DNA of 64,000 nt. Source: Terriglobus saanensis SP1PR4 (GTDB lineage Bacteria > Acidobacteriota > Terriglobia > Terriglobales > Acidobacteriaceae). This document shows, in pieces, positions 12,655 to 48,236 of the stretch; the first letter of the stretch is position 1, and each line of letters begins with the position of its first letter. The notes beneath the pieces were generated by a model, which did not search any database, was not told the DNA's origin, and saw only the letters and a list, made by a program, of their open reading frames with translations. The translations under genes were made by a program, and so were the position numbers. Location of the stretch: positions 186,001 to 250,000 of the forward strand of contig NC_014963.1 of the NCBI RefSeq assembly GCF_000179915.2, given 5' to 3'.

Positions 12655-12739
12655 CGTTTGATCCTCGGATGAATCTATTTTGTTAGATAGATATCTGATG
12701 CGGAAAGCGAACCACGTGCCGCATCAGTCCGCATAAAGT

Positions 12740-12769
12740 CATGGGCCATCCGAGATTGGATGGCCCATG
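12740..12769 (-). terminator. Hairpin between the oxidoreductase and the MFS gene
   Basis: Perfect 12-bp arms (CATGGGCCATCC and complement) with a 6-base loop, placed 22 bases after the oxidoreductase stop. No T run follows, so it may be a processing or mRNA-stabilising stem rather than a strong terminator; the MFS gene could still be co-transcribed. Confidence 0.55.
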
Positions 12770-12791
12770 TGAAACGGTAAGAAAATTTCCG

Positions 12792-30800: not shown

Positions 30801-30974
30801 GGCATGTTGCCGATGGCGCTCGGTATAGGAGAAGGCGGCGAGCAGAATGCACCTCTGGCACGGGCCGTGATCGGCGGTCTCGGTGTCGCCACTTTCGCCA
30901 CGCTCTTCTTTGTTCCTCTGATGTTCACTTTGATCCACGGAAGAAACGCCAACACGCCACAGGAGGCAGTATGA
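27807..30974 (+). CDS. RND efflux pump inner-membrane subunit (HAE1, AcrB-like)
   Basis: A 1055-residue proton-driven exporter, the normal length for the family. It has the N-terminal helix, two large periplasmic loops (about 35-335 and 555-860) and two sets of transmembrane helices. The fourth helix carries the proton-relay Asp pair Asp401-Asp402 (GLALAIGILVDDATVTIENI), placing it with drug/organic exporters rather than metal pumps. FFPSVDAGQIKLHIRA and GEGGEQNAPLARAVIGG are further family motifs. GGAG precedes the ATG. Its stop overlaps the adaptor start (ATGA). It is the first gene of the pump operon facing the ArsR gene. Substrate unknown. Confidence 0.93.
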   Translation: MWIVRLALNRPYTFIVAAILILVLGFSSIATTPTDIFPNIDIPVVTIIWSYSGLPAKEMEQRVTTFSEFVMAVVNDVKAIDSQTTSGASVIKISFQPQVHIDAAMSQVGAAVNSIRFRMPPGVNPPWILRFSASTVPIIQLALSSDTLSESEIYDYGLFRIRQQLTTVPGTLLPTPYGGVARQIMVDLDQNALLAKGLTPIDVTAAINAQNVTLPSGTAKVDAREYTVSTNSSPVDALSLNDVPIKTVNGSLVYMRDVAHVRDGWSVQQNVARANGKPAALLAIMKTGSVSTLDIVNQIKNDVLPASRAAAPKGLKITELFDQSIFVKASIVGVLREGVIAASLTALMILLFLGSWRSTLIIAISIPLSILSSIIVLSAMGETMNTMTLGGLALAIGILVDDATVTIENIHRHMDDQPLREAVLIGASEIATPTLVSTLTICIVFVSVVFLTGPAKFLFTPMALAVVFAMLASYVLSRTLVPVLVNFFLGAEQKHGIHEEEQAKSTSFFGRINDRFNEGYARVQGVYTRSLEKVLNHPKPALIASIAIMSTAFLLLPFIGRDFFPSVDAGQIKLHIRARPGTRIEATKVLFSQVEDQIRKMIPANETDLIMDNIGLTPETFNYAFGDGATISSADGEVLIALNAKHHGSTEKYMKELRSQLQKQFPDLTFFFQPADMVTQILNFGLPAPIDVQVQGYDPANYNIARHLRERLASVPGAVDVHMHQVVDAPDLHLDVDRVRAAQFGLTQQDVANSMYISLASSAAVQPNFWLDPKMGITYTVAAQTPQYNIDSINALQNTPIPIPTMRNRTEVLGNMATLTPAILPVVINHHNGAPVFDIFANTQDSDLGSIASKVNKIVKEESAHLPPGTKIVVRGQVESMNEAFNRLGLGLTFAALLVYLLMVVNYQSWLDPFIIICALPGAFCGIVWALFLTQTTFNVPSLMGAIMSIGVATANSILLVTFANELREKGVAPLEAALTAGFTRLRPIIMTAFAMIIGMLPMALGIGEGGEQNAPLARAVIGGLGVATFATLFFVPLMFTLIHGRNANTPQEAV

Positions 30975-32224
30975 CGCAGCAGACACAAATCGTTCCGACC
31001 GAAGAGACCACTGCACGGTCCTCCAGCGTAGTTCTGCGAGTGGGTGTGACCGTGGCGATTCTTCTCGTGCTGGTTGCCATCGGAGTTGTGCCACGCCTCT
31101 CGCGACAGCGCGACGCCCTTGCTGCTTCACGTGAGGCACCGGCCACGCATCCGGTGGTCACGCTCATTCACCCAAAGCAGGGCGAGCCAACCTCTGTGCT
31201 GCAATTGCCCGGAAACATTGAACCGCTTTACAGTGCCAATCTGTATGCACGTGTGGACGGTTACCTTGCCAGTCGTAGTGTGGACATCGGCACCAAGGTG
31301 AAAGCAGGCCAGGTCCTGGCGGTGATCTCTTCTCCGGAAGTCGATCAGCAGCTTTTGCAGGCCAAGGCCGCTCTAGCGCAGTCGCAAGCTTCGCTTGAGC
31401 AAGCGAAGGCCGCGCTCGAACAGGCGAGGGCCAACGCTGAACTTACACGCCTGACCAAGGAGCGCGATCTTCCGTTGGGAGAGCAGCATGCCATCTCGCA
31501 ACAGATTGTAGACAGCGCAGTGCAATCGCACAACGCGCGGTTGGCGGATGTCTCCGCCGCTTCTGCCAACATCACGGCAGCGGAAGCGAACGTGACGGCC
31601 AATCGTGCGAACGTCTCGCGTATCCAGCAGACACAAAGCTTCGAGCGGATCGTCGCTCCCTTCGACGGCGTCATTACGCAGCGCAATGTGGAACGTGGCG
31701 ATCTTGTGAGCATTGGCACGCCGGCTGCGGGCAAACCGCTCTTTAGCATTGCGCAGAGCGGAACGTTGCGCATTCAGGTCGATGTCCCTCAGTCTGAGGC
31801 GGTTGCGATCAAAGACGGGCAGACCGCTGCAGTCGATGTGAAAGAGCGTCTTGGACGCGCCTACACAGGCACTGTGATTCGCAATGCGGGAGCTCTCAAC
31901 AACGCCGCACGCACCATGCTCACCGAAGTGCAGTTGGACAACAAGGACGGTTCGCTGCTACCGGGCATGTATGCGCAGGTCAGGTTCACCCTGCCGCAGC
32001 AACGCAACTCTCTAATCATTCCTACAAGCGCCCTTGTAGTGAACCAAGGCGGAATGCATGTGGTCACGATGGATGCAGGGCAAACGATCCACTTTGTGCC
32101 CGTCACCATCGGCAAGGATATGGGCAAGGAAATCGAGATTCTGAATGGGCTGCAAGGCTCGGAGTCGCTGGTGGCAAGCCCTGGCGATCTCCTGAATGAG
32201 GGCGAACATGTCGAAGTACGCTGA
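30971..32224 (+). CDS. RND periplasmic adaptor (membrane fusion protein)
   Basis: A 417-residue HlyD/AcrA-type adaptor that bridges pump and outer-membrane channel. One N-terminal transmembrane helix (about 22-42), the split lipoyl domain (YARVDGYLASRSVDIGTKVK and later FDGVITQRNVERGDLVSIGT), a coiled-coil hairpin in between (about 118-215, Ala/Gln-rich), then beta-barrel and membrane-proximal domains. The start overlaps the pump stop as ATGA, indicating coupled translation. Its 3' end overlaps the next gene. It lacks a lipobox, so the N-terminal helix is its anchor. Confidence 0.92.
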   Translation: MTQQTQIVPTEETTARSSSVVLRVGVTVAILLVLVAIGVVPRLSRQRDALAASREAPATHPVVTLIHPKQGEPTSVLQLPGNIEPLYSANLYARVDGYLASRSVDIGTKVKAGQVLAVISSPEVDQQLLQAKAALAQSQASLEQAKAALEQARANAELTRLTKERDLPLGEQHAISQQIVDSAVQSHNARLADVSAASANITAAEANVTANRANVSRIQQTQSFERIVAPFDGVITQRNVERGDLVSIGTPAAGKPLFSIAQSGTLRIQVDVPQSEAVAIKDGQTAAVDVKERLGRAYTGTVIRNAGALNNAARTMLTEVQLDNKDGSLLPGMYAQVRFTLPQQRNSLIIPTSALVVNQGGMHVVTMDAGQTIHFVPVTIGKDMGKEIEILNGLQGSESLVASPGDLLNEGEHVEVR

Positions 32225-33704
32225 TTTCAAACCGACTCAAAGTAAATCGATGGATGAGACGAGATCACGCAAGGTGGTCAGGTATGTCCTGCAGACCGCA
32301 CTCGCGGGTCTGTTGACGTTGATGATCGTCGGTTGCCGCGTGGGACCAAACTATGCGAGACCTATGGGCACCACGCCGCAAAGCTATCGTGGCGCATTGG
32401 CTCCTGAGATTGCACCGGCAACACAGGCCGGTGCGTCGCTCGGCGACCGTCAATGGGCCGCGGTCTTTCAGGATCCGGTCCTGCAGCGGCTAGTCGCGGA
32501 GGCCTTGCAGAACAACCTGGACCTTCGCGTTGCCGCGCAGCGAGTGCTGGAAGCACAGGCACAGGTGGGTATCACTCGGTCGCAGCAGATGCCGACGATC
32601 AACGGCGGAGGCAGTTACTCCGCTCTGCAGATCCCCAGCTCGCTCGCGGGCAATAAGTCCGACGGTACTCCCGCAAACTCCTTTTTTAGCGGCGGAGGCT
32701 TCAGCGCATCGGCGGCGTGGAACCTGGATTTCTGGGGCATGTATCGCCGCCAGACGGAGGCCGCCCGTGCGGAACTTCTCGCCAGCGCATGGGGACAACG
32801 CGCCACACGGGTCACGCTTGTGCAAGAGGTCGCCGAGGCATACTTTCGGCTTCGCAGCCTCGATGAGCAGTTAGAGATCACCAACAATACCATCAAGGCT
32901 CGGCAGGACTCTTTGCAGCTCACGCAATCGCTGGAGAAGTACGGCTTCGGTTCCAGGGCAGACACGCGACAGGCAGAAGAACTCCTCCACTCCGCGCTGG
33001 CGAACCTGCCCGAGATCCGCCGACAGATTGCCGTACAGGAGAACACGATCAGCATCCTTCTCGGCCACAATCCGGATGGCGTAGAGCGCGGTCTGAAGGT
33101 CGCGGACCAGCCGCATCCCGAAGAGGTGCCGACAGGCGTACCTTCACAGTTGCTGGAAAGACGCCCCGACATTCAGCGTGCGGAGGCTACGCTCATTGCG
33201 GCCAACGCCCGCATTGGAGTCGCCAAAGCGCAGTTCTTCCCTCAGATCTCGTTAACGAGTATGGGGGGCTCTGCCAGCAACCAGCTACAGAACATCTTCT
33301 CCAGCAAGAACGCTTACTGGTACGCGGCCGGTTCTCTGTCCGAGCCCATCTTTGACGGCGGTCGCATCCGTAGTAACTATCACTACTCGCAGGCGCAACA
33401 ACAGGAGATGCTTCTCGAATATCGAAAGACAATTCTGACTGCACTCAAGGAGGTCTCGAACTCTCTGGTCGCTTACAAGGAGACGCGCGAACGCCGTGCG
33501 GAACAGACCGCGCTGGTCGTCTCTGCTACGGACGCTGTGCGTTTGGCGAGGCTACGTTACTCCGGCGGAAATACAAGCTATCTCGAAGTACTTACGAACG
33601 ATACCAACCTCTATGACGCGCAACTGCAATTAGCGCTCAGCCAGGAGCAAGAGGCCGTCTCGCTGGTGCAGCTTTACGCGGCCCTTGGAGGAGGATGGCA
33701 GTAA
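32208..33704 (+). CDS. Outer-membrane efflux lipoprotein (NodT/OprM type)
   Basis: A 498-residue TolC-like channel. Lipobox at about residue 43 (IVGC, then RVGPNYARP, the typical start of the mature NodT family). Two outer-membrane efflux repeats follow (WAAVFQDPVLQRLVAEALQN and LLERRPDIQRAEATLIAANA), and the protein ends LYAALGGGWQ, a common terminus. I chose the ATG at 32208, which has GAGG six bases upstream; the frame is open to 32196. It overlaps the adaptor gene by 17 bases, completing a three-gene pump. The next gene, a lasso-cluster glycosyltransferase, begins 92 bases later on the same strand. Confidence 0.92.
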   Translation: MSKYADFKPTQSKSMDETRSRKVVRYVLQTALAGLLTLMIVGCRVGPNYARPMGTTPQSYRGALAPEIAPATQAGASLGDRQWAAVFQDPVLQRLVAEALQNNLDLRVAAQRVLEAQAQVGITRSQQMPTINGGGSYSALQIPSSLAGNKSDGTPANSFFSGGGFSASAAWNLDFWGMYRRQTEAARAELLASAWGQRATRVTLVQEVAEAYFRLRSLDEQLEITNNTIKARQDSLQLTQSLEKYGFGSRADTRQAEELLHSALANLPEIRRQIAVQENTISILLGHNPDGVERGLKVADQPHPEEVPTGVPSQLLERRPDIQRAEATLIAANARIGVAKAQFFPQISLTSMGGSASNQLQNIFSSKNAYWYAAGSLSEPIFDGGRIRSNYHYSQAQQQEMLLEYRKTILTALKEVSNSLVAYKETRERRAEQTALVVSATDAVRLARLRYSGGNTSYLEVLTNDTNLYDAQLQLALSQEQEAVSLVQLYAALGGGWQ

Positions 33705-33761: not shown

Positions 33762-33797
33762 CTTAGTGGAGTAAGGTAGCCTACTCTCTCCACTAAG
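33762..33797 (+). promoter_or_regulatory. Inverted repeat overlapping the GT2 start codon
   Basis: Perfect 10-bp arms CTTAGTGGAG and CTCCACTAAG enclose a 16-base centre that is itself nearly self-complementary (GGTAGCCTAC). The last base of the repeat is the G of the GTG start of the glycosyltransferase. It could be an operator or an mRNA stem hiding the start. The 9-mer ACTTAGTGG in its arms recurs just upstream of the lasso precursor (34980-34988, minus strand). Confidence 0.6.
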
Positions 33798-34777
33798 TGG
33801 GTTCAGAATTGAAAAAATTATCGGCACCTTCGATCATTCTTGAGTGGGAGACAGTTCAAGAGGGCGGCTTGGACCGCGGACTGGCGGGACTTCGCGGCAT
33901 CTGTGGCCAGTTGACGGAACTGGCCGCGGATCTCGACGGTCCTGCGGAAGTCATTATCTGTTATGAGCCGGAAGTGATTGCAGAGGAGTGCCTGCGGTCC
34001 ATTGTGGATGTCGCCGCCGCTCCCGCAAAATGGCCTTGTCCTGTCCTTTTATATAAAGTCCCCTCTACGGCCAATTACTACGAAAAGAAAAACATCGGCG
34101 CGCGCCATGCCCAAAATCAAGTCCTGATTTTTTTCGATACGGATTTACTTCCTGACCCTGGTTGGCTCGAAGGCATGTTGACCCCGTTTCAGCGGTGGGA
34201 GGTCTCGGTGCTCATGGGTGCGACTTATCTGGATTCTGTGCGGCCATACGATATGGCGGTCGCGCTTTTCTGGATCTTCAAGCCCGCGAGGGCAGCGGCA
34301 CCGCTCCATCCCACAATCAGCCTGCTCTCGAATAATCTCGCGATGCGGCGTCCGCTGTTTATTCGCTTTCCATTTCCCGACCGGGATCTATACCGTGGCC
34401 AATGCACGGAGCTTGGAATACAACTGCTGAACGCGGGCCTTACGCTATACGAACAGACAGGGGCGCGCGCCAGACACCCGCCGCCACCGGGAAAGAAATT
34501 TATTAAACGAGCCCTGTTAGCAGGGCAGAACGAGCATTTTTATCATGCGCTTGAAAGGAAGACCTCGTTTGCTACCAACTGGGCGCAGCTTCGCACCGAT
34601 TATCGCAATGTCGCGAAGCGCATCAGGGAGCGCAGCGTTGTATTAAAGCCGAACGCAAGCGCGCGGACTCTCGCATGGATTCTAGGCTCCAGTTATTACG
34701 TCATCAAGGCGCTGGGTTACTTCCGGGCACGCATGAAGGCGCAACTCCACAGAAGCCTTGCGAGGGCCGAGGGCTGA
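33797..34777 (+). CDS. GT2-type glycosyltransferase of the lasso cluster
   Basis: A 326-residue cytosolic enzyme with a GT-A fold. VIICYEPEVI and KNIGARHAQNQVLIFFDTDL show the nucleotide-sugar domain with the metal-binding DTD (114-116) followed by PDPGWLEGM. The C-terminal part is basic and has a hydrophobic stretch (about 289-305). GTG at 33797 is the longest start; no Shine-Dalgarno site is seen and a TTG at 33809 is the alternative. It converges on the lasso precursor gene with 14 bases between stops, so it probably belongs to the cluster and may glycosylate the peptide or a lipid carrier. Sugar and acceptor are unknown. Confidence 0.8.
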   Translation: MGSELKKLSAPSIILEWETVQEGGLDRGLAGLRGICGQLTELAADLDGPAEVIICYEPEVIAEECLRSIVDVAAAPAKWPCPVLLYKVPSTANYYEKKNIGARHAQNQVLIFFDTDLLPDPGWLEGMLTPFQRWEVSVLMGATYLDSVRPYDMAVALFWIFKPARAAAPLHPTISLLSNNLAMRRPLFIRFPFPDRDLYRGQCTELGIQLLNAGLTLYEQTGARARHPPPPGKKFIKRALLAGQNEHFYHALERKTSFATNWAQLRTDYRNVAKRIRERSVVLKPNASARTLAWILGSSYYVIKALGYFRARMKAQLHRSLARAEG

Positions 34778-34791
34778 TGCGGCCAGGCAAA

Positions 34792-34959
34792 CTACGAGGC
34801 GCAGGTACCTAGATCGGACAGATTGAACGTAGTATTTGATGCAAGAGTCACCTGCGCCACTTCGGCGATCTTGGCTTGTGGCTTGTTCCATGTGCGAAGA
34901 GCTTTTTGAGCACCCTTGGCCTGTTCTATATTCTGGATTATTTCGTTGCTGCTCTGCAT
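34792..34959 (-). CDS. Putative lasso peptide precursor
   Basis: A 55-residue peptide (MQSSNEIIQN...GTCAS). GGAGAG lies three bases before the ATG at 34959, which supports this start over the longer frame to 34983. The leader has a W-x-K-P segment (TWNKPQAKIAEVAQVTL) resembling the aromatic-x-x-Pro recognition motif bound by lasso B1 proteins. Thr38 would be the conserved penultimate leader Thr. The only acidic core residue is Asp49: a core starting at Ala40 makes it position 10, one starting at Ser41 makes it position 9, the usual ring size. The core ends in Cys53-Ala-Ser55; a C-terminal Ser is the substrate of HprK-like lasso kinases. It is the last gene of the B2-C-kinase-A run. Assignment rests mainly on context. 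Confidence 0.75.
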   Translation of the reverse strand: MQSSNEIIQNIEQAKGAQKALRTWNKPQAKIAEVAQVTLASNTTFNLSDLGTCAS

Positions 34960-34970
34960 AGTCTCTCCAG

Positions 34971-35000
34971 TACCGTCTGCCACTAAGTCCCGCGACGGTA
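34971..35000 (-). promoter_or_regulatory. Inverted repeat upstream of the lasso precursor
   Basis: Arms TACCGTC and GACGGTA (7 bp, perfect) with a 16-base loop, between the kinase stop and the precursor ribosome site. The loop holds the ACTTAGTGG 9-mer also found around the GT2 start. It could set precursor expression apart from the upstream enzymes, either as an operator or as an mRNA processing stem. Confidence 0.45.
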
Positions 35001-35013
35001 AGTAAAAATAATA

Positions 35014-35880
35014 CTACTCGCTCTGTATCTTAATTGATCGGCCATTAGCCGCATTTATGTGATCTTCGATAAGATCTGCGCAAGATACAACTGAACCTTC
35101 ATGACATAAATATGAAAATTCGATTGCGTTGGAAAGAGTGCAGGTAAGTTCCAGATGGCTCTGCATGCATCCGAGCGCAGCCAGATAGTTTGGCCGATAA
35201 GAGTTTTCAGTCAAAAGAGAAAGTCGCGCTGGGCCTGTGATAGGAACGATACCGTCGGAACGAGTTCGATCCAGTAAAAAGACCGTTCGCAGTCGCGCGG
35301 GATGTGGCCGTGTTTCCACGGGCAGTGTGTACTTGTCCCTCGCTCCGGGCAGCCGATCCAGATCGCTCACATCAATTTCGAGATGATCGCAGGCATCTCG
35401 CCATAACTTGATGCCGGGACGGCTCGGCCAGGCCATTATGCCTTCAGGTTGGGAGTAGATCGCCGTGAGATCGTCCCCCAGGAGCGACCATCCCCGGCGC
35501 ACCAACTCGCCCGCGAGCGTCGATTTTCCTGTCCCCGAAGGCGCAGCGATGGCGATGGCCTCCATTTGTTCCGCGGGCACCAGGCAAGCGCCATGCAGAG
35601 CGAAGCCTCCGCGCTGATAGATCAGTGCCGCCCGCACGGCCCCATAAAGAAACTGATTGAACGCAATGGGATTGACACCCTCTTCACGGCAGACCTCGAT
35701 CACCGATCCGTCCCTGGCGAGAAATCTACCGATGCCTGGCATGATGCGTAACAGGGCTCCGGGCTTTGCAACAGAGAAGGGCGCAACGCGGACGGCGCCC
35801 TCCAGTGCATCGGGGAGCGAACCTACTTCGCGTATTTCAGCGCCGGGAACTCCTGGTACAGGCAAGCCAGCTTTTTTCAA
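35014..35880 (-). CDS. HprK-like lasso peptide kinase
   Basis: A 288-residue protein with an HPr-kinase-type P-loop: APSGTGKSTLAGELVRRGW (Walker A about 114-121) followed by LLGDD (133-137), and upstream GGFALHGACLV. It lacks the HPr-interacting N-terminal domain of true HprK/P and matches the stand-alone kinases found in lasso clusters, some of which are known to phosphorylate the C-terminal Ser of the precursor. The start is TTG at 35880, directly after the TGA of the cyclase gene, with AGGAGG just upstream, so it is translationally coupled. The precursor 54 bases downstream ends in Ser, which fits the proposed reaction. Confidence 0.87.
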   Translation of the reverse strand: MKKAGLPVPGVPGAEIREVGSLPDALEGAVRVAPFSVAKPGALLRIMPGIGRFLARDGSVIEVCREEGVNPIAFNQFLYGAVRAALIYQRGGFALHGACLVPAEQMEAIAIAAPSGTGKSTLAGELVRRGWSLLGDDLTAIYSQPEGIMAWPSRPGIKLWRDACDHLEIDVSDLDRLPGARDKYTLPVETRPHPARLRTVFLLDRTRSDGIVPITGPARLSLLTENSYRPNYLAALGCMQSHLELTCTLSNAIEFSYLCHEGSVVSCADLIEDHINAANGRSIKIQSE

Positions 35881-37773
35881 TCAGCCTCCTGCATTTTGTC
35901 GAAGTAGAAATAATCCTATGTCTGCGGCTCGATCGATCCTGCCTGTGAGCACAGGGGAAGTTTCGCCGTTGGCCACTGCGTAAATGGCGCGCCGCAGAAG
36001 GGCCAGATCGAGGAGACGGATGCAGGCAGGTGACTCCGCCATATCCTCCGCGATCTGGCGATAGTTCGCGCATTGTCTCGCCATGGAGGAGCTGTAGTCT
36101 GCAGACTGCTGTCCCTGCGTGCGGCGCAGGCGAACCGACTCCGGAAGCACTCCTCGACCTGCTTCGCGCGCCAGACCACGGGATTGTCCCGCAGGGGAAA
36201 ACGCTGCGAGGGGAAAGGAAAGCAGAAGCTCAATCAATCGGCGGTCGCTCGTTGGGTCGCGAAATTCTATGCCCCACTGCGGCAGAGGATCCGCCGCCCA
36301 GAGCATCGCTGGTGAGAGCGCCCCTCGCAAGAAGGCTTTCCGTGTTCGTTGAGGGGGGCGCAACCGACGCAAGGCCTCACTGTTCGCCTTTTGAAAATCG
36401 GAGGCAAGGAGACAAGCAGGCAGGCTTTGGCTCACCTTCTCTCCGTAGACGCGGAAGCGCAGGGCATCGAAGAGGGATTGAGGAAGCAGTCCTCCGGCGA
36501 TGGTCTTCCAGGCGGCGCGATCTCCCGCTGCCTGCATGTCCAGCGCAAGCCCGAATGCCGCTCTGAATTGAAGATGCTGGCAGAGTTCGCGAAATCCTCC
36601 CAGACCGCTATAGCTGAGAGCGAAGTTGCCGTGAGCGCCGGTCAACAAAACACGCGAACCCCTTTCTCTCAACCTGTGGGCGATGGTATCGATCCAAAGG
36701 TGGTTCGCTCCATTCCGCACGGGCGTGGCGCTGCGAGCGTGGATCTGCGGGATCAGGTCAAGAGCCGTGCGGCCATCCGTTCGCAGTACGATGTGCTCGA
36801 TGTTTTGATGGAAGGCAGCTGTTTTTGCCGCAAACGGCGCATCGTCGGCGTCCCATCCAGTACGTCGATTGCTTGGATTGTCGAGATGCGGCGCGGAGGT
36901 GTAGGCCGTGATGCTCTGGCCTGAAGCGCGCAGCTGTTTTGCCGCCATGCTTGTGACCAGACCGGAATCGAGACCGCCGCTGAGTGTCGCGCTCACGGGG
37001 GAGGAAGACCGCAGGCAGGACTGCACAGCCTTCTCAAAAAGCTCGCGCGCGCTTTCGACGTAGTCCGCCGCGTTGCTGAACCGCGCCTGATACTTGTCTT
37101 GGGGAGCCCACCAACGCGTGATCTTCACCTGCCCATTACTCCAGAGCAAAGAATGGCCGCCGGGTAGCGCGCTGATCTCGCGAAACGGAGTTTGCCCTTT
37201 CAGAAAGACCGCCTCGGCACATAGCCCGAGCGCCTGCTCGTGCATCGTTGGTTTGAGATATGGACAAGCGCGAATCGCAGTAAGTTGCGTACTTACGATC
37301 AATCTGCCTTCTGCCAGAGCATAAAAAAGACGCGTATGGCCAACATGGTCCGTAGCGCCAAAGAGCTCTTTCTTTTTGTGAGAGAACGCGACAAACGCGT
37401 AGTCGCCCGCGAGATGTCCCATGCAGACCCGGCCCCACTTGAGAAAGCAGCGGTAAAGAATTGCAGAGTCCGCCACATGGCTTGCGGTGGCCTGTGGCAG
37501 GTCGAGAGCACGTAGGAGGTCTTCGCGATTGTCCAATCTCGCCTGGCAGACGAACACAGTATCTCGGTCTTCCGAAAGGATGGGCTGGCGGTCGAACTTA
37601 TCTTCAGGAAGCAGACCCGATACGCCGACCGCTGCACGGAAGTCTGATCTCTCTCCCGCGATGGCCTCGGGCCAGAGCCGTAGATTGCTCCCTCTGCCTA
37701 GCAGAGCTTCGCTGGTCCGCTGCAACACGTCTGGTCGAATGTTCTCTTCTGCGGAAGCAATCACTGCGAACAA
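35881..37773 (-). CDS. Lasso peptide cyclase (asparagine synthase-like C protein)
   Basis: A 630-residue homologue of asparagine synthetase B that should adenylate the ring Asp/Glu side chain and close the isopeptide bond with the core N-terminus. The N-terminal domain begins MFAVIAS, lacking the Cys2 nucleophile of true glutamine amidotransferases, as expected for lasso cyclases. ATP-pyrophosphatase signature SGGLDSGLVTS at 265-275, with TGAHGNFALSYSG downstream. Its start overlaps the B2 gene by 13 bases and its stop touches the kinase start. It differs from housekeeping AsnB in the missing Cys2 and in its partners. Confidence 0.9.
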   Translation of the reverse strand: MFAVIASAEENIRPDVLQRTSEALLGRGSNLRLWPEAIAGERSDFRAAVGVSGLLPEDKFDRQPILSEDRDTVFVCQARLDNREDLLRALDLPQATASHVADSAILYRCFLKWGRVCMGHLAGDYAFVAFSHKKKELFGATDHVGHTRLFYALAEGRLIVSTQLTAIRACPYLKPTMHEQALGLCAEAVFLKGQTPFREISALPGGHSLLWSNGQVKITRWWAPQDKYQARFSNAADYVESARELFEKAVQSCLRSSSPVSATLSGGLDSGLVTSMAAKQLRASGQSITAYTSAPHLDNPSNRRTGWDADDAPFAAKTAAFHQNIEHIVLRTDGRTALDLIPQIHARSATPVRNGANHLWIDTIAHRLRERGSRVLLTGAHGNFALSYSGLGGFRELCQHLQFRAAFGLALDMQAAGDRAAWKTIAGGLLPQSLFDALRFRVYGEKVSQSLPACLLASDFQKANSEALRRLRPPQRTRKAFLRGALSPAMLWAADPLPQWGIEFRDPTSDRRLIELLLSFPLAAFSPAGQSRGLAREAGRGVLPESVRLRRTQGQQSADYSSSMARQCANYRQIAEDMAESPACIRLLDLALLRRAIYAVANGETSPVLTGRIDRAADIGLFLLRQNAGG

Positions 37774-38210
37774 GGCGGCGCGTCTCCCGGCGGCTGCACG
37801 ACCGCATTGTTGAAGCTGTAGATCGGGACGTAACGTTCTTTCTCTCTACGTCCCGTGACGATGACTCCACCTGCCTCGAGCCAGGCGTGCGCCTTTATCG
37901 TTACCCCTTCACTGGGTGCGACAGATAAAACGAGCGTCGAAGCAATGTGACGTTGTCGCAGCATACCGCGTGCTGCCATCGCTTTCTCGAGGCAAGTCCA
38001 CTGATGAGGAAGGTTGCGATCAACAGATGCCAGGGCTCCCCGAACATCCAACGCGGTGCGCGCCTCATCCCGGAATCTGTTTGCCTGCAGGAGAGGTCGC
38101 GCAAGATCCTTTGCCGAACGATCAAAGGGAAGACGCAACTTCCACGAAGCCCTCAGAAGTTGATAGGTCGCCTCGGCAATCAATCCGTACCGTCTCAAAT
38201 GTGCTCGCAT
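37761..38210 (-). CDS. Lasso peptide B2 protein (leader peptidase)
   Basis: A 149-residue transglutaminase-like cysteine protease that removes the leader peptide. Family motifs: WTCLEKAMAARGMLRQRHIA with catalytic Cys73, and KAHAWLEAGGVIVTG with catalytic His108. The length equals that of stand-alone B2 proteins from split B1/B2 systems. The ATG at 38210 has no strong ribosome site. First gene of the minus-strand cluster transcript, overlapping the cyclase gene. The recognition partner B1 is encoded divergently at 38504. Confidence 0.9.
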   Translation of the reverse strand: MRAHLRRYGLIAEATYQLLRASWKLRLPFDRSAKDLARPLLQANRFRDEARTALDVRGALASVDRNLPHQWTCLEKAMAARGMLRQRHIASTLVLSVAPSEGVTIKAHAWLEAGGVIVTGRREKERYVPIYSFNNAVVQPPGDAPPCSQ

Positions 38211-38400
38211 AGAGTACTGATGCTCTCGTGGTCTTCACACTCTATGTTTGTCTACTGCGATCGACAAATGGCCTTCCAGTAAAAGTTGATGGCATGAAAG
38301 AAAATATGCAGGAAAGAGGAAGGAACTTATGGTCTCTAAGTTGAGAAGGTCAGACACGTGATCACAAATCTCGTAAGGTAGCTAGAGAGATTGGCCCATT

Positions 38401-38478
38401 GCCTGCAGGAACGCAGGCACAGCACTTATAGGGCTGAGATAGACTTCTCCTTCTCACTGGAGAGAGTTCCACGTGGAA
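38401..38478 (+). promoter_or_regulatory. Hairpin and palindrome upstream of lasso B1
   Basis: In the 293-base divergent gap between B2 and B1 there is a hairpin at 38401-38418 (GCCTGC/GCAGGC, 6-base loop) and a perfect 12-bp palindrome TTCCACGTGGAA at 38467-38478, 25 bases before the B1 ATG. The 10-mer GTAAGGTAGC at 38373-38382 is shared with the region before the GT2 gene (33771-33780). The rest of the gap holds only frames under 15 codons, none like a precursor. Confidence 0.45.
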
Positions 38479-38503
38479 ACGTGTAAATCAATATAGGAAA
38501 GAT

Positions 38504-38779
38504 ATGAAAGATAGCCTTGTCGTCTATAAGCGAGCATCGGAAGTTGTTGCGGCGACCATGGGTGAGACCTCTCTTCTGTTGCATGTGAATGACTGGGTCT
38601 ATCTGGAATTGAACGAAAGTGGCAGCCGCATCTGGGCGCTTTTGGAAGAGGGCTATGGTCTGCCGCAACTCGTTTCCACCCTGGTGGAAGAGTTTGCCGT
38701 AGCTCCGGAGGACTGCGCGGAAGAAACCGCTGAATTTCTCGCGATCCTGGAGTCGAAGAAATTTGTCGTGCGGTTGTAA
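38504..38779 (+). CDS. PqqD-family RiPP recognition protein (lasso B1)
   Basis: A 91-residue PqqD-like protein. In lasso pathways this stand-alone recognition element binds the precursor leader and delivers it to B2 and the cyclase. The fold is visible: beta-hairpin segment SLLLHVNDWVYLELNESGSR, then IWALLEEGYGLPQLVSTLVEEF and a three-helix part ending ESKKFVVRL. AGGAAAG precedes the ATG. It is on the opposite strand from B2, cyclase, kinase and precursor, an uncommon layout, and converges on the GT17 gene with 24 bases between stops. Confidence 0.9.
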   Translation: MKDSLVVYKRASEVVAATMGETSLLLHVNDWVYLELNESGSRIWALLEEGYGLPQLVSTLVEEFAVAPEDCAEETAEFLAILESKKFVVRL

Positions 38780-38803
38780 CTGTCTCCCGTCTTCCTTAGA
38801 TGT

Positions 38804-39910
38804 TTAGTGGTGGAGATGACCCTCTTCTGTGCTTTGCCTCCGTCTTCCGCGTAACAATCGTGCCAACAAAGAACGCGCGATCCCTGCGCAGAGCAATGGC
38901 AGGCTGAGAAGCGGCAGAAGCTCGTCGAAGTGAAGATCGATCCACCGTACTGTTTTATCGGAGAAGGCTGTACTTGTCCTTGCCCAGGCCCAAGTGCGCA
39001 CCGCACTTCGCTTCCACACGGGAGGCAGCGGGCTGTGGCGGAGCGTGGTCGGACATGCGGTCGCAAGACGACGAAGATCTTCGGGAAGATCACCGGGACT
39101 CCGTTCCGCATACCACCATCCTCTGTGGTGAACGGCATGTTCTTCGCAGCGTAGGAGATGGGGAAGATGCATCCCGCGGCCAGTGGCCCACTCCGCGTGA
39201 AAGACGCGTCCAAGTTTGCTGGAGAGCTGTGCCGAAGGATCGATTGCCGTCAGATGACGACCGGCGTCGGCGATCACCGGCTTTTCTTCGGGCCCGAAGC
39301 GAAGCCAGAAAGGGGAGCTTTCCAGAAGGCTCTTAACGGGTGCGGCGACTCCGGATCGGCCACTCCACAGCGACTTCAACTCACCCCAAGTCTCGGGGAC
39401 AGAATGGTTCGCCGCAAAGGCAAAGGGAAGGGAAGTATCCACGCAGCACGTAGACGCGGGAGCGAGAAGATCAAGCTTCTGATAGTGGCGCGTCATTTGA
39501 AGCCGATGGGGTTCTTGCAAACCCTCGGCATGCAAACGCTGTAAGAGAGATACGCTCGGAATCTCATCGGAATCAAGGAGCAGAACGATATCTTCCGGAC
39601 CGGCGTCACGGAGCGCGAACAGGATCGCATTGCGTTGGACTTGTGCTCTCTGCTTTGGCGAACTGGACGGACCTCCCAGGCGTGCAAGTTGCAACGTTCT
39701 TAACTTATCCGCAGCCCATGAAAATCTTTCTTGGTGGGATAAATAATGAAATAACTTATCCTCGCCTCGGTAGGTTTCTCCCGCTTCGACCAGAACGAAG
39801 AAATCCGTATCGACATAGTTTTGGCGGAGACGGTGCTCCAGTAAGTCGAGCTCGCCATCGAAAAGGAAAGTGTCATAAATACGAGCTGCCGATTTCTGGT
39901 AATTACCCAC
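38804..39910 (-). CDS. GT17-type glycosyltransferase
   Basis: A glycosyltransferase of the beta-1,4-N-acetylglucosaminyltransferase-like GT17 family. The family opening is IYDTFLFDGELDLLEHRLRQ, then FFVLVEAGETYRG, VQRNAILFALRDAGPEDIVL and LLDSDEIPS, whose DSD is the likely metal site. I chose GTG at 39910 because the family normally starts a few residues before YDTF; a TTG at 39970 would add 20 residues with no better ribosome site. The C-terminal 40 residues are hydrophobic then Arg-rich, suggesting membrane association. Its place beside B1 suggests a role in the lasso cluster, but capsule or lipid glycosylation cannot be excluded. Confidence 0.83.
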   Translation of the reverse strand: MGNYQKSAARIYDTFLFDGELDLLEHRLRQNYVDTDFFVLVEAGETYRGEDKLFHYLSHQERFSWAADKLRTLQLARLGGPSSSPKQRAQVQRNAILFALRDAGPEDIVLLLDSDEIPSVSLLQRLHAEGLQEPHRLQMTRHYQKLDLLAPASTCCVDTSLPFAFAANHSVPETWGELKSLWSGRSGVAAPVKSLLESSPFWLRFGPEEKPVIADAGRHLTAIDPSAQLSSKLGRVFHAEWATGRGMHLPHLLRCEEHAVHHRGWWYAERSPGDLPEDLRRLATACPTTLRHSPLPPVWKRSAVRTWAWARTSTAFSDKTVRWIDLHFDELLPLLSLPLLCAGIARSLLARLLRGRRRQSTEEGHLHH

Positions 39911-40058
39911 GATAGAAAGAGATGTTACAAACTTCGCGGGGAAGTACGAGTTCGCACTTTGATAGGACAACCAAATTTTTAACTACCGAGTTCACTCCGA
40001 GAAAAAGATACGCGTACACTTCTCCCACTTCTAACTCTGTATAGGACTTGGAGCTCCA

Positions 40059-40973
40059 ATGAATAATCTGCGCACTCTTTGTGTCGTCTCAGTGGTCGTA
40101 CTTCTTACGTCTGTCTCCGCACATGCACAAGCAACCCGCACGTGGGTCTCTGGTGTAGGGGATGATGCCAATCCCTGCAGTCGTACTGCTCCTTGCCATA
40201 CCTTTGCGGGCGCGATCTCGAAGACAGCTGCAGGTGGCGAAATCGACATTCTAGATCCGGGTGGATTCGGCTCTCTGACGATCACCAAGAGCATCACGGT
40301 GGACGGTATGGCGGGCCTTGGAGGCATCCTGAACAGCTCTGGCGCGAATGGCATCACGATCAATGCAGGCGTCGGCGATGTGGTAACGCTTAGGAATCTT
40401 TCGATCAATGGATCCGGGACCGGCGGGATCGGGGTAAGAATTATCCAGGCCAAAACAGTGCATATCGAAAGATCAGTCATCAGCGGAAATACCGGAAATG
40501 GGATCGACGTTAATACGAACGCTGCTTTGGAACTTACTGTGACGAATTCAACGGTTCGAGATAATGGTGGCAGCGGAATCTCCCTTCTGGGGACCGTCGC
40601 CAGTGTGAACGCAACCATCGTGGATAGTTACATCCAAAATAACGGAGCAAGCGGTTTGCTCTGTGGAGCCTTCTGCAAAAGCCTGGTAAGAAACAGCTCT
40701 TCCAGCGATAACTCCGGGGCCGGTTTTGTTGCAGACGCTACCACGAGCGCCGCCGCTCTGAACATCGCCGATGCCACCAGCGCAGACAATGGGGGAGCGG
40801 GAGTGCAGGCCATCGGTGGAGCCAGCACGATCGCGACCATTCGTATCTCCAATGTCTCCATCGCTTCGAATGGCTCCGCGTTTTCGACCAGCACTAATGG
40901 AAACATCTATTCCTATTTCAACAACCATGCCACCGGAGCTGGCACAGTCACATCGATCGTTCCAGTGCAGTAA
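40059..40973 (+). CDS. Secreted right-handed beta-helix protein
   Basis: A 304-residue protein with a signal peptide (1-24, ending AHAQA) and a repetitive parallel beta-helix (about 55-290) of the pectate-lyase-like type: coils such as KTVHIERSVISGNTGNGIDV, LTVTNSTVRDNGGSGISLLG and ISNVSIASNGSAF. Four cysteines are visible after the signal (NPCSRTAPCH and LLCGAFCK), suggesting disulfides outside the cytoplasm. No catalytic residues can be assigned. GGAG precedes the ATG. It sits inside the lasso region between GT17 (minus) and the nucleotidyltransferase (plus, 40 bases later); whether it belongs to the pathway is unclear. Confidence 0.8.
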   Translation: MNNLRTLCVVSVVVLLTSVSAHAQATRTWVSGVGDDANPCSRTAPCHTFAGAISKTAAGGEIDILDPGGFGSLTITKSITVDGMAGLGGILNSSGANGITINAGVGDVVTLRNLSINGSGTGGIGVRIIQAKTVHIERSVISGNTGNGIDVNTNAALELTVTNSTVRDNGGSGISLLGTVASVNATIVDSYIQNNGASGLLCGAFCKSLVRNSSSSDNSGAGFVADATTSAAALNIADATSADNGGAGVQAIGGASTIATIRISNVSIASNGSAFSTSTNGNIYSYFNNHATGAGTVTSIVPVQ

Positions 40974-41013
40974 AGATCAAACCCTTTCGAGGCTCACCAA
41001 CGATAGGTGATGA

Positions 41014-42201
41014 GTGGCTATGCAAACTGTTAAGTCATGGCTGGAGAAAACTCCCATCGAATTTCAAGTGGTGGTGGCAGCCTGCTGTGGACCGCAGACA
41101 GAAGTACACATCGAACGATTGGAAAGACTCCTCCGCTCTTCCATCGACTGGAGTCGGCTCCTTCGGATCGCTCACCGCAATCGGGTCAAAGGACTTGTCT
41201 TCTCCTCACTCTCGACGCACGGTGACCTGGTCCCCCTCGTCGTGCTGGAAGAATTGAAGGCGGCGAGCTTAACACTTCTACGTGACAACGTGATCGCTGC
41301 TCGCTATGCGACGTACCTCACGGAAGAACTGGCTGCTTCCGGCATCAGGGTCGCGACGGTCAAAGGCGCGCCGCTCGGCCAGAAGCTCTACGGCGCTTTG
41401 AATCTTCGCCACGGTAAGGACATCGATCTCCTCATCCCCGAAGCGTCGCTGGAAGCTGCGGACGCAGTGCTTCGCTGCAGCGGACATATTCGCTCCGCTC
41501 CGCCACCTTCCGCTACTCCGCACGAACTTCAGGCGTACCGCATTTACAGAAGCCATTACGAATACGAGCCCGGCCCAGGCAAGCCGCAGGTGGAGCTTCA
41601 TTGGCGGCTTCATCTTAATCCGTGTTTCGGTCCATTGAGTTATCCGGAAACAGAATGGCAGACGATCGCCTTCGCGCCGGGCATTCGCGTGCGCACGCTC
41701 GGAGATCTGGATCTTCTCTGTTATCTCTGTGCGCACGGCTCTACGCATGCCTGGTCGCGCTTGAAGTGGATCGTGGATATCGCCGCGATGCTCCGGTCCG
41801 ACCCTGATCTTGCGGCCCCTTTCCTGGAGCGCTCCCGGCAACAGAACACGGAACGAGCGGCGTGCCAGGCGCTTATGATGGCGCACGATCTCTTTGGAAC
41901 GCCACTCCCCTCGACGGTGCCCGCGCCCGGCATCGCAGTGCGCCTCCTCCACAGGATCGCGCAGAAGACCCTGACCTTCGGTGGTGCGGAACAGGAGATC
42001 GCCGAAGGTCCTTTTCTGCTCCGCCAGGTCTACTTTTCGCAACTCCTTTTGAGTACTTCGTTTCGCCAGTTGCTTACGGGACTTCATAACCAGTTACTTG
42101 CGCCCGCCGCCTCGCGCGGTTCCTTGAGTTCGCGCGCGGCACGTGTTGCGGCGCCCTTGCGCTTCGTTTATCGATGGTTGTGGAGAACGGCCAACCCGTA
42201 G
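41014..42201 (+). CDS. Nucleotidyltransferase family protein of the lasso cluster
   Basis: A 395-residue member of the large uncharacterised nucleotidyltransferase family often found in lasso and other RiPP clusters. VKGAPLGQKLYGALNLRHGK, then DIDLLIP (Asp136, Asp138) form the polymerase-beta-like active site; VELHWRLH and LDLLCYLCAHGSTHAWSRLK are further family motifs. In the pseudomycoidin pathway a homologue acts with the kinase to add hexoses onto the phosphorylated C-terminus, as I recall it. GTG at 41014 has AGG six bases upstream; an ATG two codons later is possible. The pairing with an HprK-like kinase in this cluster supports a tailoring role. Confidence 0.85.
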   Translation: MAMQTVKSWLEKTPIEFQVVVAACCGPQTEVHIERLERLLRSSIDWSRLLRIAHRNRVKGLVFSSLSTHGDLVPLVVLEELKAASLTLLRDNVIAARYATYLTEELAASGIRVATVKGAPLGQKLYGALNLRHGKDIDLLIPEASLEAADAVLRCSGHIRSAPPPSATPHELQAYRIYRSHYEYEPGPGKPQVELHWRLHLNPCFGPLSYPETEWQTIAFAPGIRVRTLGDLDLLCYLCAHGSTHAWSRLKWIVDIAAMLRSDPDLAAPFLERSRQQNTERAACQALMMAHDLFGTPLPSTVPAPGIAVRLLHRIAQKTLTFGGAEQEIAEGPFLLRQVYFSQLLLSTSFRQLLTGLHNQLLAPAASRGSLSSRAARVAAPLRFVYRWLWRTANP

Positions 42202-42733: not shown

Positions 42734-44023
42734 ATGAACCAGCGAGGTGCACTCATCGTGCGCAGAATCATTTGTCTTTGTCTTTTAAGTTGCGCCGCGG
42801 CTTCGGCCGTCGCACAGTCTTCGCAAACGGCACCGGTGTCTTCCACCGCTGCCGGACCACTCACGCTCACGCAGGTGCTGGAGGTCGCTCACCGCGCCAA
42901 TCCCACCCTCCTCTCCGCCGCGCAGCATCTCTCTGCGGTGCGCGCGCAGGAGATCACTGCAGGCCTGCGGCAGAATCCGAACGCAGTGCTCGGGACCCAG
43001 ATGACTACTTTGGATCCTGGCGATCCGAACGGCACGGAGTTCTACCAGTTTGGCGTGCAGCGTCTCTTTGAGCGCGGCGGCAAACGGGATGCTCGCCTGG
43101 CAACAGCCCGATCGACCACGGCGCTCACCGGCTTCCAGCTGGATGATCAACGGCGGCAAATCGATCTTTCCATCCGGCAGGCTTTTTCCCGCATGCTCTT
43201 TGCGCAAAAGGCGCTTGGGATCGCTCGGGAAAATCTCGCGGATTACCAAAAAACCGTTGCTCTGATGAAGGTGCGTCTGGACGCTGGCGCGATGGACCAG
43301 ACCGACTTCGACCGCGTGGAATTGCAGCTCGCCGGCTTTGAATCCGATCTGGACAACGCCCAGTTGGCGCTGCGGCAGGGAAGCATCGCCTTGCAGACTC
43401 TCATGGGCGTGGCTACTCCAAACGAGCAGTTCGATATTGCAGGAACGCTCGACCCGCCGACGGTGACCACGACGATCGATCAACTGCGCAGCGATGCCCT
43501 CGCGAATCGCCCTGATCTGAAGGCCTCGCAGGCACAGGTCGCCGTCAGCAACGCCGGTGTAAAGCAAGCCATCGCCAACGGCACGGCCGACCCCACGGTG
43601 GAAGGCGAGTACGAGCGTGCGGGAAGGGCAAACACCGTCGGTGCAAGTCTCAACTTTCCACTGCGGATCTTCGATCGCAACCAGGGAGAGAAAGAGCGTG
43701 CGAAGTATGAGTTGGAGAGCAGCCGACTTGCGCTGACCGCCTTACAGAACCAGGTGCTTTCCGATGTGGACAGCGCCTGGGCTGGGTATCTCGCCGCGCA
43801 GTCTCAGGCAGCGCGCTATCGGTCCAAGTATCTGGCGGAAGCGGCGCACGTTCGCGACAACCTGCAGTTCAGTTATCGCAACGGCAACGCAACCCTGCTT
43901 GACTACCTCAGCGCCCTCTCCGACTATCGACAGATCAACCTCACAGCTCTAAATGCAGATCTGCAGCTCCTGCTCTCGCTCGAGCAACTCAGCTACGCCA
44001 CACATACGGAGATCCTTCCATGA
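42734..44023 (+). CDS. czcC: Outer-membrane efflux protein (CzcC-like)
   Basis: A 429-residue TolC-family channel with a signal peptide (about 1-28, ending AVAQS) and no lipobox. The long alpha-helical repeats of the family are visible (LTLTQVLEVAHRANPTLLSA near the start; LQFSYRNGNATLLDYLSALS near the end). FYQFGVQRLFERGGKRDAR is typical of the CzcC branch. The last codons overlap the adaptor start (ATGA). It should form the outer-membrane exit of the heavy-metal-type pump encoded downstream. Confidence 0.88.
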   Translation: MNQRGALIVRRIICLCLLSCAAASAVAQSSQTAPVSSTAAGPLTLTQVLEVAHRANPTLLSAAQHLSAVRAQEITAGLRQNPNAVLGTQMTTLDPGDPNGTEFYQFGVQRLFERGGKRDARLATARSTTALTGFQLDDQRRQIDLSIRQAFSRMLFAQKALGIARENLADYQKTVALMKVRLDAGAMDQTDFDRVELQLAGFESDLDNAQLALRQGSIALQTLMGVATPNEQFDIAGTLDPPTVTTTIDQLRSDALANRPDLKASQAQVAVSNAGVKQAIANGTADPTVEGEYERAGRANTVGASLNFPLRIFDRNQGEKERAKYELESSRLALTALQNQVLSDVDSAWAGYLAAQSQAARYRSKYLAEAAHVRDNLQFSYRNGNATLLDYLSALSDYRQINLTALNADLQLLLSLEQLSYATHTEILP

Positions 44024-45117
44024 ACAGGTTTCGCGTCACGTCCCCATTCGGTTTCCGGGTATTCGCATTCGGTTGTCTTCTTCCTCTCGGACTTGCAGGT
44101 TGCAAGCACGATGCTGCACCGGTCCCGGACCTGCCCAAGGCCAATCTGAAGGTGGAAACAGTCCACTCACAAAACATCGGCGACACACTGGAAATTCCCG
44201 GACGTGTAGAAGCAGATCCCGAGCATCTGGTGCACATCTACGCTCCGCTCAGCGGACGTCTTTTGAATCTCAAACTGACCGCGGGCCAGGAAGTGCGGAA
44301 GGGCCAGGCCATTGCTATGCTGCAGAGCGGCGATGTCGCGCAGGCACGTGCTGATTTCGAGAAAGCACACATCGAAACACTCCGGGCCGATCATGCTCTG
44401 GAGCGCGGCAAGCTTCTGGTCGCGCATGAAGTCATGTCGCAGGCAGACTTTCAGGAGCTTCAGGCCGCAGATGACGCGGCACATGCCGAGCAGGAACGTG
44501 CGCGCCAGCGTATCCATGAACTTGGATTCTCCGAAAACGGTACGTCGGACATGACCGCCATCACCTCACCCATCACCGGCACGGCGCTGGAAGTTGGCAC
44601 CGCAAGCGGAGAGATGCAGCGCTCGTTGGAGACGACGAACGCCATCGCTACCGTCGCCAACCTGGACACCGTCTGGATCACCGGCGATCTCTTCGAGCAC
44701 GACCTCGGCGCTGTGCCTTTGCATCGCCCCGTGGACATACTCTTCTCCGCTTATCCGGGTGAGACCTTCCACGGCACGATCGCCAACATCGGCGACTCGC
44801 TCGATCCCACAACGCACGCGGTGAAGGTCCGCGTTGTGTTGGCGAATCCCGGTCATCGCCTGAAGCCCGCCATGTTTGCGACACTTCGTATTGCTCGGCC
44901 ATCGGTGATGCGCATCCTCGTGCCGGTCGAAGCCGTTCTGCACGACGGCGATGTCACCGAGGTCTACATTCCGTCCTCTGCAGGCAAGTACACACTACGG
45001 CAGGTCGTCACAGGACCCACGCGCGGCAAGCAGATTGAGATCGTCTCAGGTCTCCATGACGGCGACAGGATCGTAACCGAAGGCGCAGCGTTTCTGCGGC
45101 AACCGGTAGGAGACTAA
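44020..45117 (+). CDS. czcB: Efflux adaptor lipoprotein (CzcB-like)
   Basis: A 365-residue periplasmic adaptor. A lipobox ends at Cys28 (LAGC, then KHDAAPVPD), so it is probably lipid-anchored. A lipoyl half-motif (IYAPLSGRLLNLKLTAGQEV), an alpha-hairpin (about 105-175), a second half (ITSPITGTALEVGTASGEM) and a barrel domain follow. There is no His-rich metal-binding tail as in some CzcB proteins. Coupled to the channel gene by an ATGA overlap; the pump gene follows after two bases. Confidence 0.9.
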   Translation: MNRFRVTSPFGFRVFAFGCLLPLGLAGCKHDAAPVPDLPKANLKVETVHSQNIGDTLEIPGRVEADPEHLVHIYAPLSGRLLNLKLTAGQEVRKGQAIAMLQSGDVAQARADFEKAHIETLRADHALERGKLLVAHEVMSQADFQELQAADDAAHAEQERARQRIHELGFSENGTSDMTAITSPITGTALEVGTASGEMQRSLETTNAIATVANLDTVWITGDLFEHDLGAVPLHRPVDILFSAYPGETFHGTIANIGDSLDPTTHAVKVRVVLANPGHRLKPAMFATLRIARPSVMRILVPVEAVLHDGDVTEVYIPSSAGKYTLRQVVTGPTRGKQIEIVSGLHDGDRIVTEGAAFLRQPVGD

Positions 45118-45119
45118 GC

Positions 45120-48100: not shown

Positions 48101-48236
48101 CGGCGCACAGGCGCAACAGCCACTCGCCCGCGTCGTCGTGGGAGGCATGGTCACCACTGTCCTGGCGGTGCTCTTTCTGATCCCTCTGATGACCGCAGGA
48201 ACAAAACCGGCGGAGGTCAGCGTCGAATCAGAGTGA
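45120..48236 (+). CDS. czcA: Heavy-metal RND efflux pump (CzcA-like, HME family)
   Basis: A 1038-residue inner-membrane proton antiporter. The fourth helix carries the heavy-metal signature Asp391, Asp397 and Glu404 (AIDFGILVDASIIVLESS), equivalent to the DFG...D...E set of CzcA and distinct from the Asp-Asp pair of the pump at 27807. YPDPSPPLVEIITQNP and GIRRTQRAHPHPKAEALRIG are other landmarks. The start is GTG with GGAG upstream in the end of the adaptor gene. The DFG pattern points to divalent ions such as cobalt, zinc, cadmium or nickel rather than copper or silver, but the ion is not proven. A strong terminator follows. Confidence 0.92.
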   Translation: MASLLKALLRYRTMVLIVLAAALAAGTFGALKLDVEAYPDPSPPLVEIITQNPAWSAEEIEQQVTAPIELTLNGTPQLEQIRSISIFGLSDVKLYFKFSSELFRDRQEVLARLQTLQLPMNLQPQLSPWSPIGEIYRYQLSGPYSLNDLKATQDWLVRRELKQVPGVVDITTFGGTTKQYQVQPDPDKLLAYGVTLPQVITAIQSSNANAGGNYLSIGDQNVNVRSIGLLRNMDDVGAVVVAQKNGTPVLVRDVATVKEGFQPRLGKIGRNDQKDIVEAIVLLQKDEQSIPALEALKKKIGELNTGSLLPPGMHISTIYDRTRLIDLTTHTVKHVILTGLFLVTLILLLMLGDLRTTLIAAATIPFAVLFSFSMMALTGHSANLISIGAIDFGILVDASIIVLESSFRRLSRCEPGQTTAGAIVQGVQDAARPVLFSTLIILVAFIPLFTMQGVPGKIFAPMSVTYGFALTGALIFALVFAPVLSDVFAKKQPPVAESTKQTHTSHEDEGTWLSRFFSHHYAYMLDGIFRVPKLIWGVAAVAMIGAVLLFVFAVGGEFMPPLEEGNLWIRVTLPQDISFERAAALGDQLRADMAKFPEITQVVSQVGRPDDGTDVTTFNNLEFGVQLKPSSEWPSELHGDKDKLIEEMQHAFSKYPGAAFGFSQAIQDNVEEAMSGVKGENSLKLFGDNLDDLTRMANQIQTVMEQVRGVTDVGIFKVNGQPSMVINLNREHAARYGISPSDVNAAIQAAVGGSPITQMVEGDRRFDIALRYPESDRSTPEAVGRILLPTPDGGHVSLSQVADVAIREGSFMIYREGGRRYIPIKFSVRGRDLSATIEDLQHQIHDKIKLPQGYSFAWAGEFDSLRKEQQRLAVIIPISLLVIFLLLYLQFQRWVDALIVLATLPFCAIGGILGLLITHTSFSISAAVGFTSLIGVATLAAVVFLSGIRRTQRAHPHPKAEALRIGALDELRPVMMACLSAGLGLLPAAVMNGIGAQAQQPLARVVVGGMVTTVLAVLFLIPLMTAGTKPAEVSVESE

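Follow-up and report, generated by a model that had tools for sequence, protein, structure and literature searches.

The window analyzed here, 64,000 nucleotides of the tundra soil bacterium Terriglobus saanensis SP1PR4 (NC_014963.1, positions 186,001 to 250,000 of the forward strand), carries a gene cluster for a lasso-type peptide, in which the biosynthetic genes stand together with two glycosyltransferase genes of the GT17 and GT2 types (Table 1). Judged by its genes and their relatives, the cluster is real, and the comparative data suggest something new about it, namely that the GT17 family co-varies with a candidate acceptor residue, a single Cys in the tail of the precursor peptide.

Genes of the cluster

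Four genes form a minus-strand run, B2-C-K-A, from 38210 down to 34792, in which the precursor gene A comes after the kinase gene K at the 3' end. The frames of B2 and C overlap and those of C and K abut, as expected for a single operon. B1 is divergent from B2, GT2 and a nucleotidyltransferase are plus-strand frames outside this core, and a beta-helix gene that the original prediction did not list sits between GT17 and the nucleotidyltransferase. That prediction, made from the letters of this DNA, had placed an acidobacterial lasso cluster at 33797-42201; family matches and motifs verify the presence of every gene it named, both glycosyltransferases score over their Pfam cut-offs, and Pfam and NCBIfam matches back the lasso-type assignment in the genus Terriglobus. 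Its description of the tailoring set as unusually large holds less well, because lasso clusters with kinase, nucleotidyltransferase, glycosyltransferase and sulfotransferase genes are already on record (PMC7533575, PMC8498205, PMC9266682, PMC10368454; here and below, citations refer to the accessible portions of these papers).

Both residues named for the B2 protease, Cys73 and His108, are present, and its match to NF033537 is above cut-off. The cyclase lacks Cys2, as predicted, its N-terminus reading L/M-F-A; among NCBIfam models it scores best against the lasso cyclase NF033535, at 222 bits where the cut-off is 525, and its gene neighbors support a lasso cyclase. The lasso-specific NF033536 is likewise the top NCBIfam match of B1, though under cut-off, and HprK_rel_A is the best NCBIfam match of the kinase. 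In a search of solved structures, the cyclase matched solely a hydroxyamidotransferase and asparagine synthetase B, and neither B2 nor GT17 had a match. The kinase carries His96, a Walker A motif (SGTGKST) and Asp136-Asp137, and these motifs together with the C-terminal Ser of the precursor support the phosphorylation that had been proposed. A kinase-type lasso pathway with a C-terminal Ser is of a known kind.

Table 1. Features of the cluster. Coordinates here and throughout are positions within the window unless a genome (G) or locus (L) code is named.
Feature	Position	Strand	Evidence
GT2-type glycosyltransferase	33797..34777	+	PF00535 (Glycos_transf_2) 33.9 bits, cut-off 23.3
Precursor A, 55 residues	34792..34959	-	W-x-x-P leader motif, tail DLGTCAS; within ORF 34792-34983
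Predicted core ASNTTFNLSDLGTCAS	34795..34842	-	Thr(-2) register, Asp10; register predicted from 20 Trp+14-type precursor rows
K, HprK-like peptide kinase	35014..35880	-	PF07475 (HPr_kinase_C) 22.4 bits, cut-off 33.3; HprK_rel_A 29.4 bits, cut-off 200
C, Asn-synthase-like macrolactam cyclase	35881..37773	-	PF00733 101.6 bits; PF13537 (GATase_7) 64.4 bits; SGGLDS at 265
B2 leader peptidase	37761..38210	-	NF033537 (lasso_biosyn_B2) 67.4 bits, cut-off 33; PF13471 (Transglut_core3) 72.3 bits; Cys73, His108
B1 leader-binding protein (PqqD/RRE)	38504..38779	+	PF05402 52.3 bits, cut-off 23.4; NF033536 50.3 bits, cut-off 80
GT17-type glycosyltransferase	38804..39970	-	PF04724 (Glyco_transf_17) 59.6 bits, cut-off 26
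Beta-helix protein, possible associate	40059..40973	+	PF13229
NTP_transf_5 nucleotidyltransferase, membership uncertain	41014..42201	+	PF14907 189 bits, cut-off 31.2

The precursor and its register

The predicted 55-residue precursor is present, with GGAGAG 3 bases upstream of its ATG. It has no Pfam or NCBIfam match; in a genome-wide search it matched at E 2.3e-20 a precursor profile that includes its own sequence. The nearest cluster is that of a member of the same genus, Terriglobus albidus DSM 26559, where the gene order is identical (GT2-A-K-C-B2-B1-GT17-beta-helix) and the enzymes are ~43-61% identical by tblastn (51% for the kinase). The T. albidus precursor lies at the same position and shares with the window precursor W-x-K-P, the Thr-Leu pair and the tail TCAS. 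Its retention in the same place indicates more than a chance open reading frame (ORF), and it rules out reading these genes as a precursor-less HprK/PqqD cassette of a general kind. A scan of viral contigs found no relative of the precursor.

The predicted core of this precursor is a weaker point of the original prediction. The leader motif reads WNKPQA where YxxPxL is expected, and the Thr lies at Trp+14 rather than +15; the Y-type precursors of our survey have Thr at Tyr+15 in 8/8 cases. With this Thr taken as -2, an Asp or Glu falls at core position 8 or 9 in 6/9 GT17-linked precursors of the Trp+14 group and in all 11 unlinked rows (10 distinct), and the window precursor has its Asp at 10, and the two precursors of G346, a further genome of the family, have theirs at 12 and 11. 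Rings of known lasso peptides have 7-9 residues, with the ring Asp or Glu at core positions 7-9. In the window and G346, either cleavage would be shifted downstream or the ring would exceed 7-9 residues; in the window, cleavage one or two residues later would give a core starting with Ser (Asp9) or Asn (Asp8). Leaders without Thr(-2) have already been reported in Acidobacteriaceae (Duan et al. 2023, PMC10368454).

GT17 and the tail Cys

The suggestion that the product is possibly glycosylated is strengthened by the distribution of GT17. With a profile built from the window and T. albidus enzymes, GT17 was found in 3/398 sampled genomes of the family, the third being G346, and in 2/396 genomes of a phylum sample, which are the same two Terriglobus. 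Ten of 385 Alphaproteobacteria genomes had matches (E <= 1e-15), full-length in three and limited to ~110-140 N-terminal residues in the remaining seven, and the two matches among 369 Gammaproteobacteria genomes were both partial. A plasmid search returned 10 records, the best being pTM1 of Tistrella mobilis, where GT17 adjoins two sulfotransferases, an HPr-type kinase, an annotated nucleotidyltransferase and two unannotated precursor ORFs. The distinct full-length enzymes thus span Acidobacteriota and Alphaproteobacteria, and in 6/6 genomes, including that of the window, they lie <=5 kb from a precursor and an HprK-like kinase. Within ~8 kb, the G346 locus combines B1, GT17, K, C and B2 with three sulfotransferase-type genes and two precursors. 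GT2 matched once in the window genome and once in T. albidus, at the cluster each time, and had no match at E <= 1e-5 in the other four of six genomes tested.

W-x-x-P, a Thr at Trp+14, an invariant Asp, a C-terminal Ser and a single tail Cys are common to all nine GT17-linked precursors; the Asp is followed by six residues in 6/9 and by five in 3/9. Among 24 unlinked candidates, "unlinked" meaning that the stretch fetched holds no GT17 (some stretches end at contig ends), a Cys after the motif is absent from 23, and the remaining one, at L118, has Cys at its very end. The association of Cys with GT17 linkage gives a Fisher value of 2.6e-7, which ignores kinship and includes some near-copies among the rows. 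Candidates were hand-picked by eye, many other ORFs that matched loose patterns being rejected; no precursor was accepted at several cyclase loci (e.g. L035, L040, L042, L074, L112, L114, L122, L127), and a further candidate without Cys (L150/L167) stands outside all counts.

Closer relatives show the same pattern. A genome-wide precursor profile, with inspection of matches down to E 0.01 and of two weaker ones beside stronger ones (E 0.113 in G1069; 0.446 in G842), brought in unlinked Trp+14 paralogues from the Tistrella-type genomes and G011; with L109 and three earlier loci these make up the 11 unlinked rows mentioned above, and Cys occurs in none. Because these paralogues were found through similarity to the linked set, close relatives are favored. 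In the three Tistrella-type genomes, Cys is present in 5/5 linked precursors and in 0/6 inspected unlinked ones (5 distinct), and one linked/unlinked pair reads DGVGCAS versus DGLGNAS. In a tree of 28 kinases, the G011 kinase is sister to that of G346 (99/95); G011 has no GT17 match and a precursor without Cys, whereas G346 has both GT17 and Cys. The joint GT17/Cys label requires two changes on this tree, and GT17 and Cys thus appear to have been gained or lost together at least once in one clade.

Proposed maturation and its alternatives

What the sequence itself shows is the gene set and a conserved precursor; we infer the enzymatic steps as follows. B1 would bind the Trp-x-x-Pro leader and K would phosphorylate the precursor at its C-terminal Ser. 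B2 would then cut after a Thr-x pair, and C would close the ring between the freed N-terminus and the side chain of the Asp, leaving the six-residue tail LGTCAS. Either after or before cleavage, GT17, probably helped by GT2, would add a sugar to the tail of a product of 14-16 residues before decoration. We assign a probability of about 0.6 to the reading that the product is a small lasso-type peptide carrying both phosphate and sugar, the latter added to the tail by GT17.

Because Cys co-varies with GT17, the leading candidate for the sugar acceptor is this lone Cys, two residues before the putative phospho-Ser. S-glycosylation of Cys is possible, as is sugar addition to Ser, Thr, Asn or the phosphate. 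A fuller version, which we offer only tentatively, is that GT17 may be a dedicated lasso-peptide S-glycosyltransferase acting on a single tail Cys 1-2 residues before the phospho-Ser, giving Cys(sugar)-x-Ser(phosphate), with a ring of >9 residues in some members. Such a tail decoration was not met in the accessible lasso literature examined.

Several observations weigh against the preferred reading. The cyclase, B1 and kinase score under curated lasso or kinase cut-offs, and the structure model of GT17, built from two sequences, has a predicted local distance difference test score (pLDDT) of 37. The surroundings of the GT17 locus yielded no C, B1 or B2 in any of the three Tistrella-type genomes. 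The Asp positions in the window and G346 are outliers under the Thr(-2) register, and the C-terminal Ser is not specific to GT17 loci, as 10/11 unlinked rows have it. The number of independent GT17-Cys events and lineages is small, the Fisher value ignores kinship, and the unlinked set was picked by eye and consists partly of near-copies. Finally, PsmN of the pseudomycoidin pathway shows that sugars can go onto phosphate instead (PMC9266682).

This last point leads to the alternative that survives best, though we regard it as unlikely overall: K would phosphorylate the Ser, the nucleotidyltransferase and/or the glycosyltransferases would add sugar to that phosphate, and the Cys would serve otherwise, for instance in a disulfide dimer, or be a chance inheritance. 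Beyond the PsmK/PsmN precedent (PMC9266682), such phosphoglycosylation is consistent with the C-terminal Ser in 9/9 linked precursors, with PF14907-type genes in 8/54 surveyed stretches, one of them sharing an open frame with a B2 (L034), and with the annotated nucleotidyltransferase beside the pTM1 locus, which gave no match with a PF14907-type query. Yet GT17 is found solely with Cys-bearing precursors, and in T. albidus and G346 the PF14907 genes are separated from the cluster, on other contigs.

An enlarged ring of 10-12 residues, making the product a macrolactam-tailed peptide rather than a threaded lasso, is improbable. It would accommodate the Thr at Trp+14 in 9/9 linked precursors together with Asp at 10, 12 and 11 in the window and G346; against it stand the other linked and all unlinked rows, where Asp or Glu occupies position 8 or 9, and the fact that a cleavage shift of 1-2 residues yields Asp9 or Asp8 in the window.

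Least probable of all is a plain phosphorylated lasso peptide beside two cell-surface glycosyltransferases placed by chance, for although both families often act on other targets and partial GT17 matches lack lasso-type genes by query (five stretches fetched of the seven alphaproteobacterial cases; two inspected of the nine other plasmid records, with only GT17-type matches), 6/6 full-length GT17 genes in two phyla stand beside a lasso-type precursor.

Associated genes and scattered pathways

The nucleotidyltransferase that had been counted in the cluster is present, 2.2 kb from B1, but its membership is doubtful: beyond the separate contigs in the two relatives, a tree of 11 nucleotidyltransferases gave it no well-supported placement. 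At L034, a single open frame (12460-14325) matches both B2 and NTP_transf_5 and is probably a fusion; fusions of B2 with a nucleotidyltransferase type are mentioned in PMC8498205.

The beta-helix gene adjoins GT17 in T. albidus and an orphan precursor in G011, and it had no match at E <= 1e-10 in G002, G346 and G1069; it is thus present in 3/6 genomes searched and lies near a lasso-type gene in all three. This orphan precursor of G011 (L162, 9806-9973) is of the Trp+14 type and divergent from the beta-helix homologue, and no lasso enzymes were matched in that 19 kb stretch. Two efflux operons of the resistance-nodulation-division (RND) type flank the window cluster (27807-33704 and 42734-48236); we do not accept them as members, because their ORFs have no match in a 19.9 kb T. 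albidus stretch. No ATP-binding cassette (ABC) transporter that could explain export was found among 18 region proteins scanned. The genes scanned around the window cluster include no sulfotransferase.

The Tistrella-type pathways are scattered. In each genome the search found one B2, standing by itself, and in T. mobilis a cyclase-kinase-B1 set lies ~34 kb from GT17 on pTM1, so that the pathway there, if functional, must act in trans. The same scattering, with several precursors at separate sites, is seen across L063, L073, L086-L088, L097-L099 and L163-L166.

Sulfotransferase-type genes accompany the kinase at L044, L045, L050, L086-L088 and L109. The run at positions 3803-8280 of L109 (G011:C1:1247000-1262000) places an adenylylsulfate (APS) kinase, an HprK-like kinase, a sulfotransferase and a precursor behind a lasso-type cyclase, an arrangement suggesting that the product may be a sulfated lasso-type peptide with its own supply of 3'-phosphoadenosine 5'-phosphosulfate. 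We dropped Tyr sulfation as a common theme because no Tyr follows the Thr in several precursors from sulfotransferase loci, namely those at L044 and L045 and one each of G842 and G346. The literature search found no paper joining a lasso peptide with an adenylylsulfate kinase; an earlier paper recorded a sulfotransferase in lasso clusters of Firmicutes (PMC8498205).

Relation to known systems

No description of this cluster, or of GT17 in a lasso pathway, was met in the accessible literature searched, which left subscription papers outside its scope. The proposed link between GT17 and Cys is directly testable in T. saanensis, the type strain of which is culturable (DSM 23119 / ATCC BAA-1853; PMC3570800).

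The cluster fits among several known pathways. Like the window, paeninodin-type clusters (PadeK, ThcoK, SyanK) comprise A, B1, B2, C and a kinase for which the C-terminal Ser is the site (PMC9266682, PMC8498205); the window differs in having A at the end of the run, a divergent B1 and, in addition, GT17, GT2 and the tail Cys, and the neighbors scanned include no ABC transporter. The bsf cluster of Bradymonas sediminis shares split B1 and B2, a kinase, a nucleotidyltransferase and a departure from the canonical Thr(-2), whereas the phosphorylated residue of BsfA is Ser3 and its last residue is Asp, and "glycosyl" occurs 0 times in the paper's main text (PMC10368454). In Butyrivibrio, clusters with an HPr kinase, a nucleotidyltransferase and GT2/EpsH show that a glycosyltransferase beside kinase-type lasso genes had already been noted; the families there are GT2/EpsH rather than GT17, and the accessible text reports no link to a tail Cys (PMC7533575). 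For lasso peptides, the accessible text describes the attachment of a sugar in a single case, that of PsmN, the enzyme chemistry of which is unclear (PMC9266682). The pseudomycoidin cluster, with PsmK and the nucleotidyltransferase PsmN, resembles the window in pairing a kinase with candidate sugar-adding enzymes (PMC9266682). In the window, however, the enzyme kept with the cluster is GT17, while the PF14907 gene does not stay with it.

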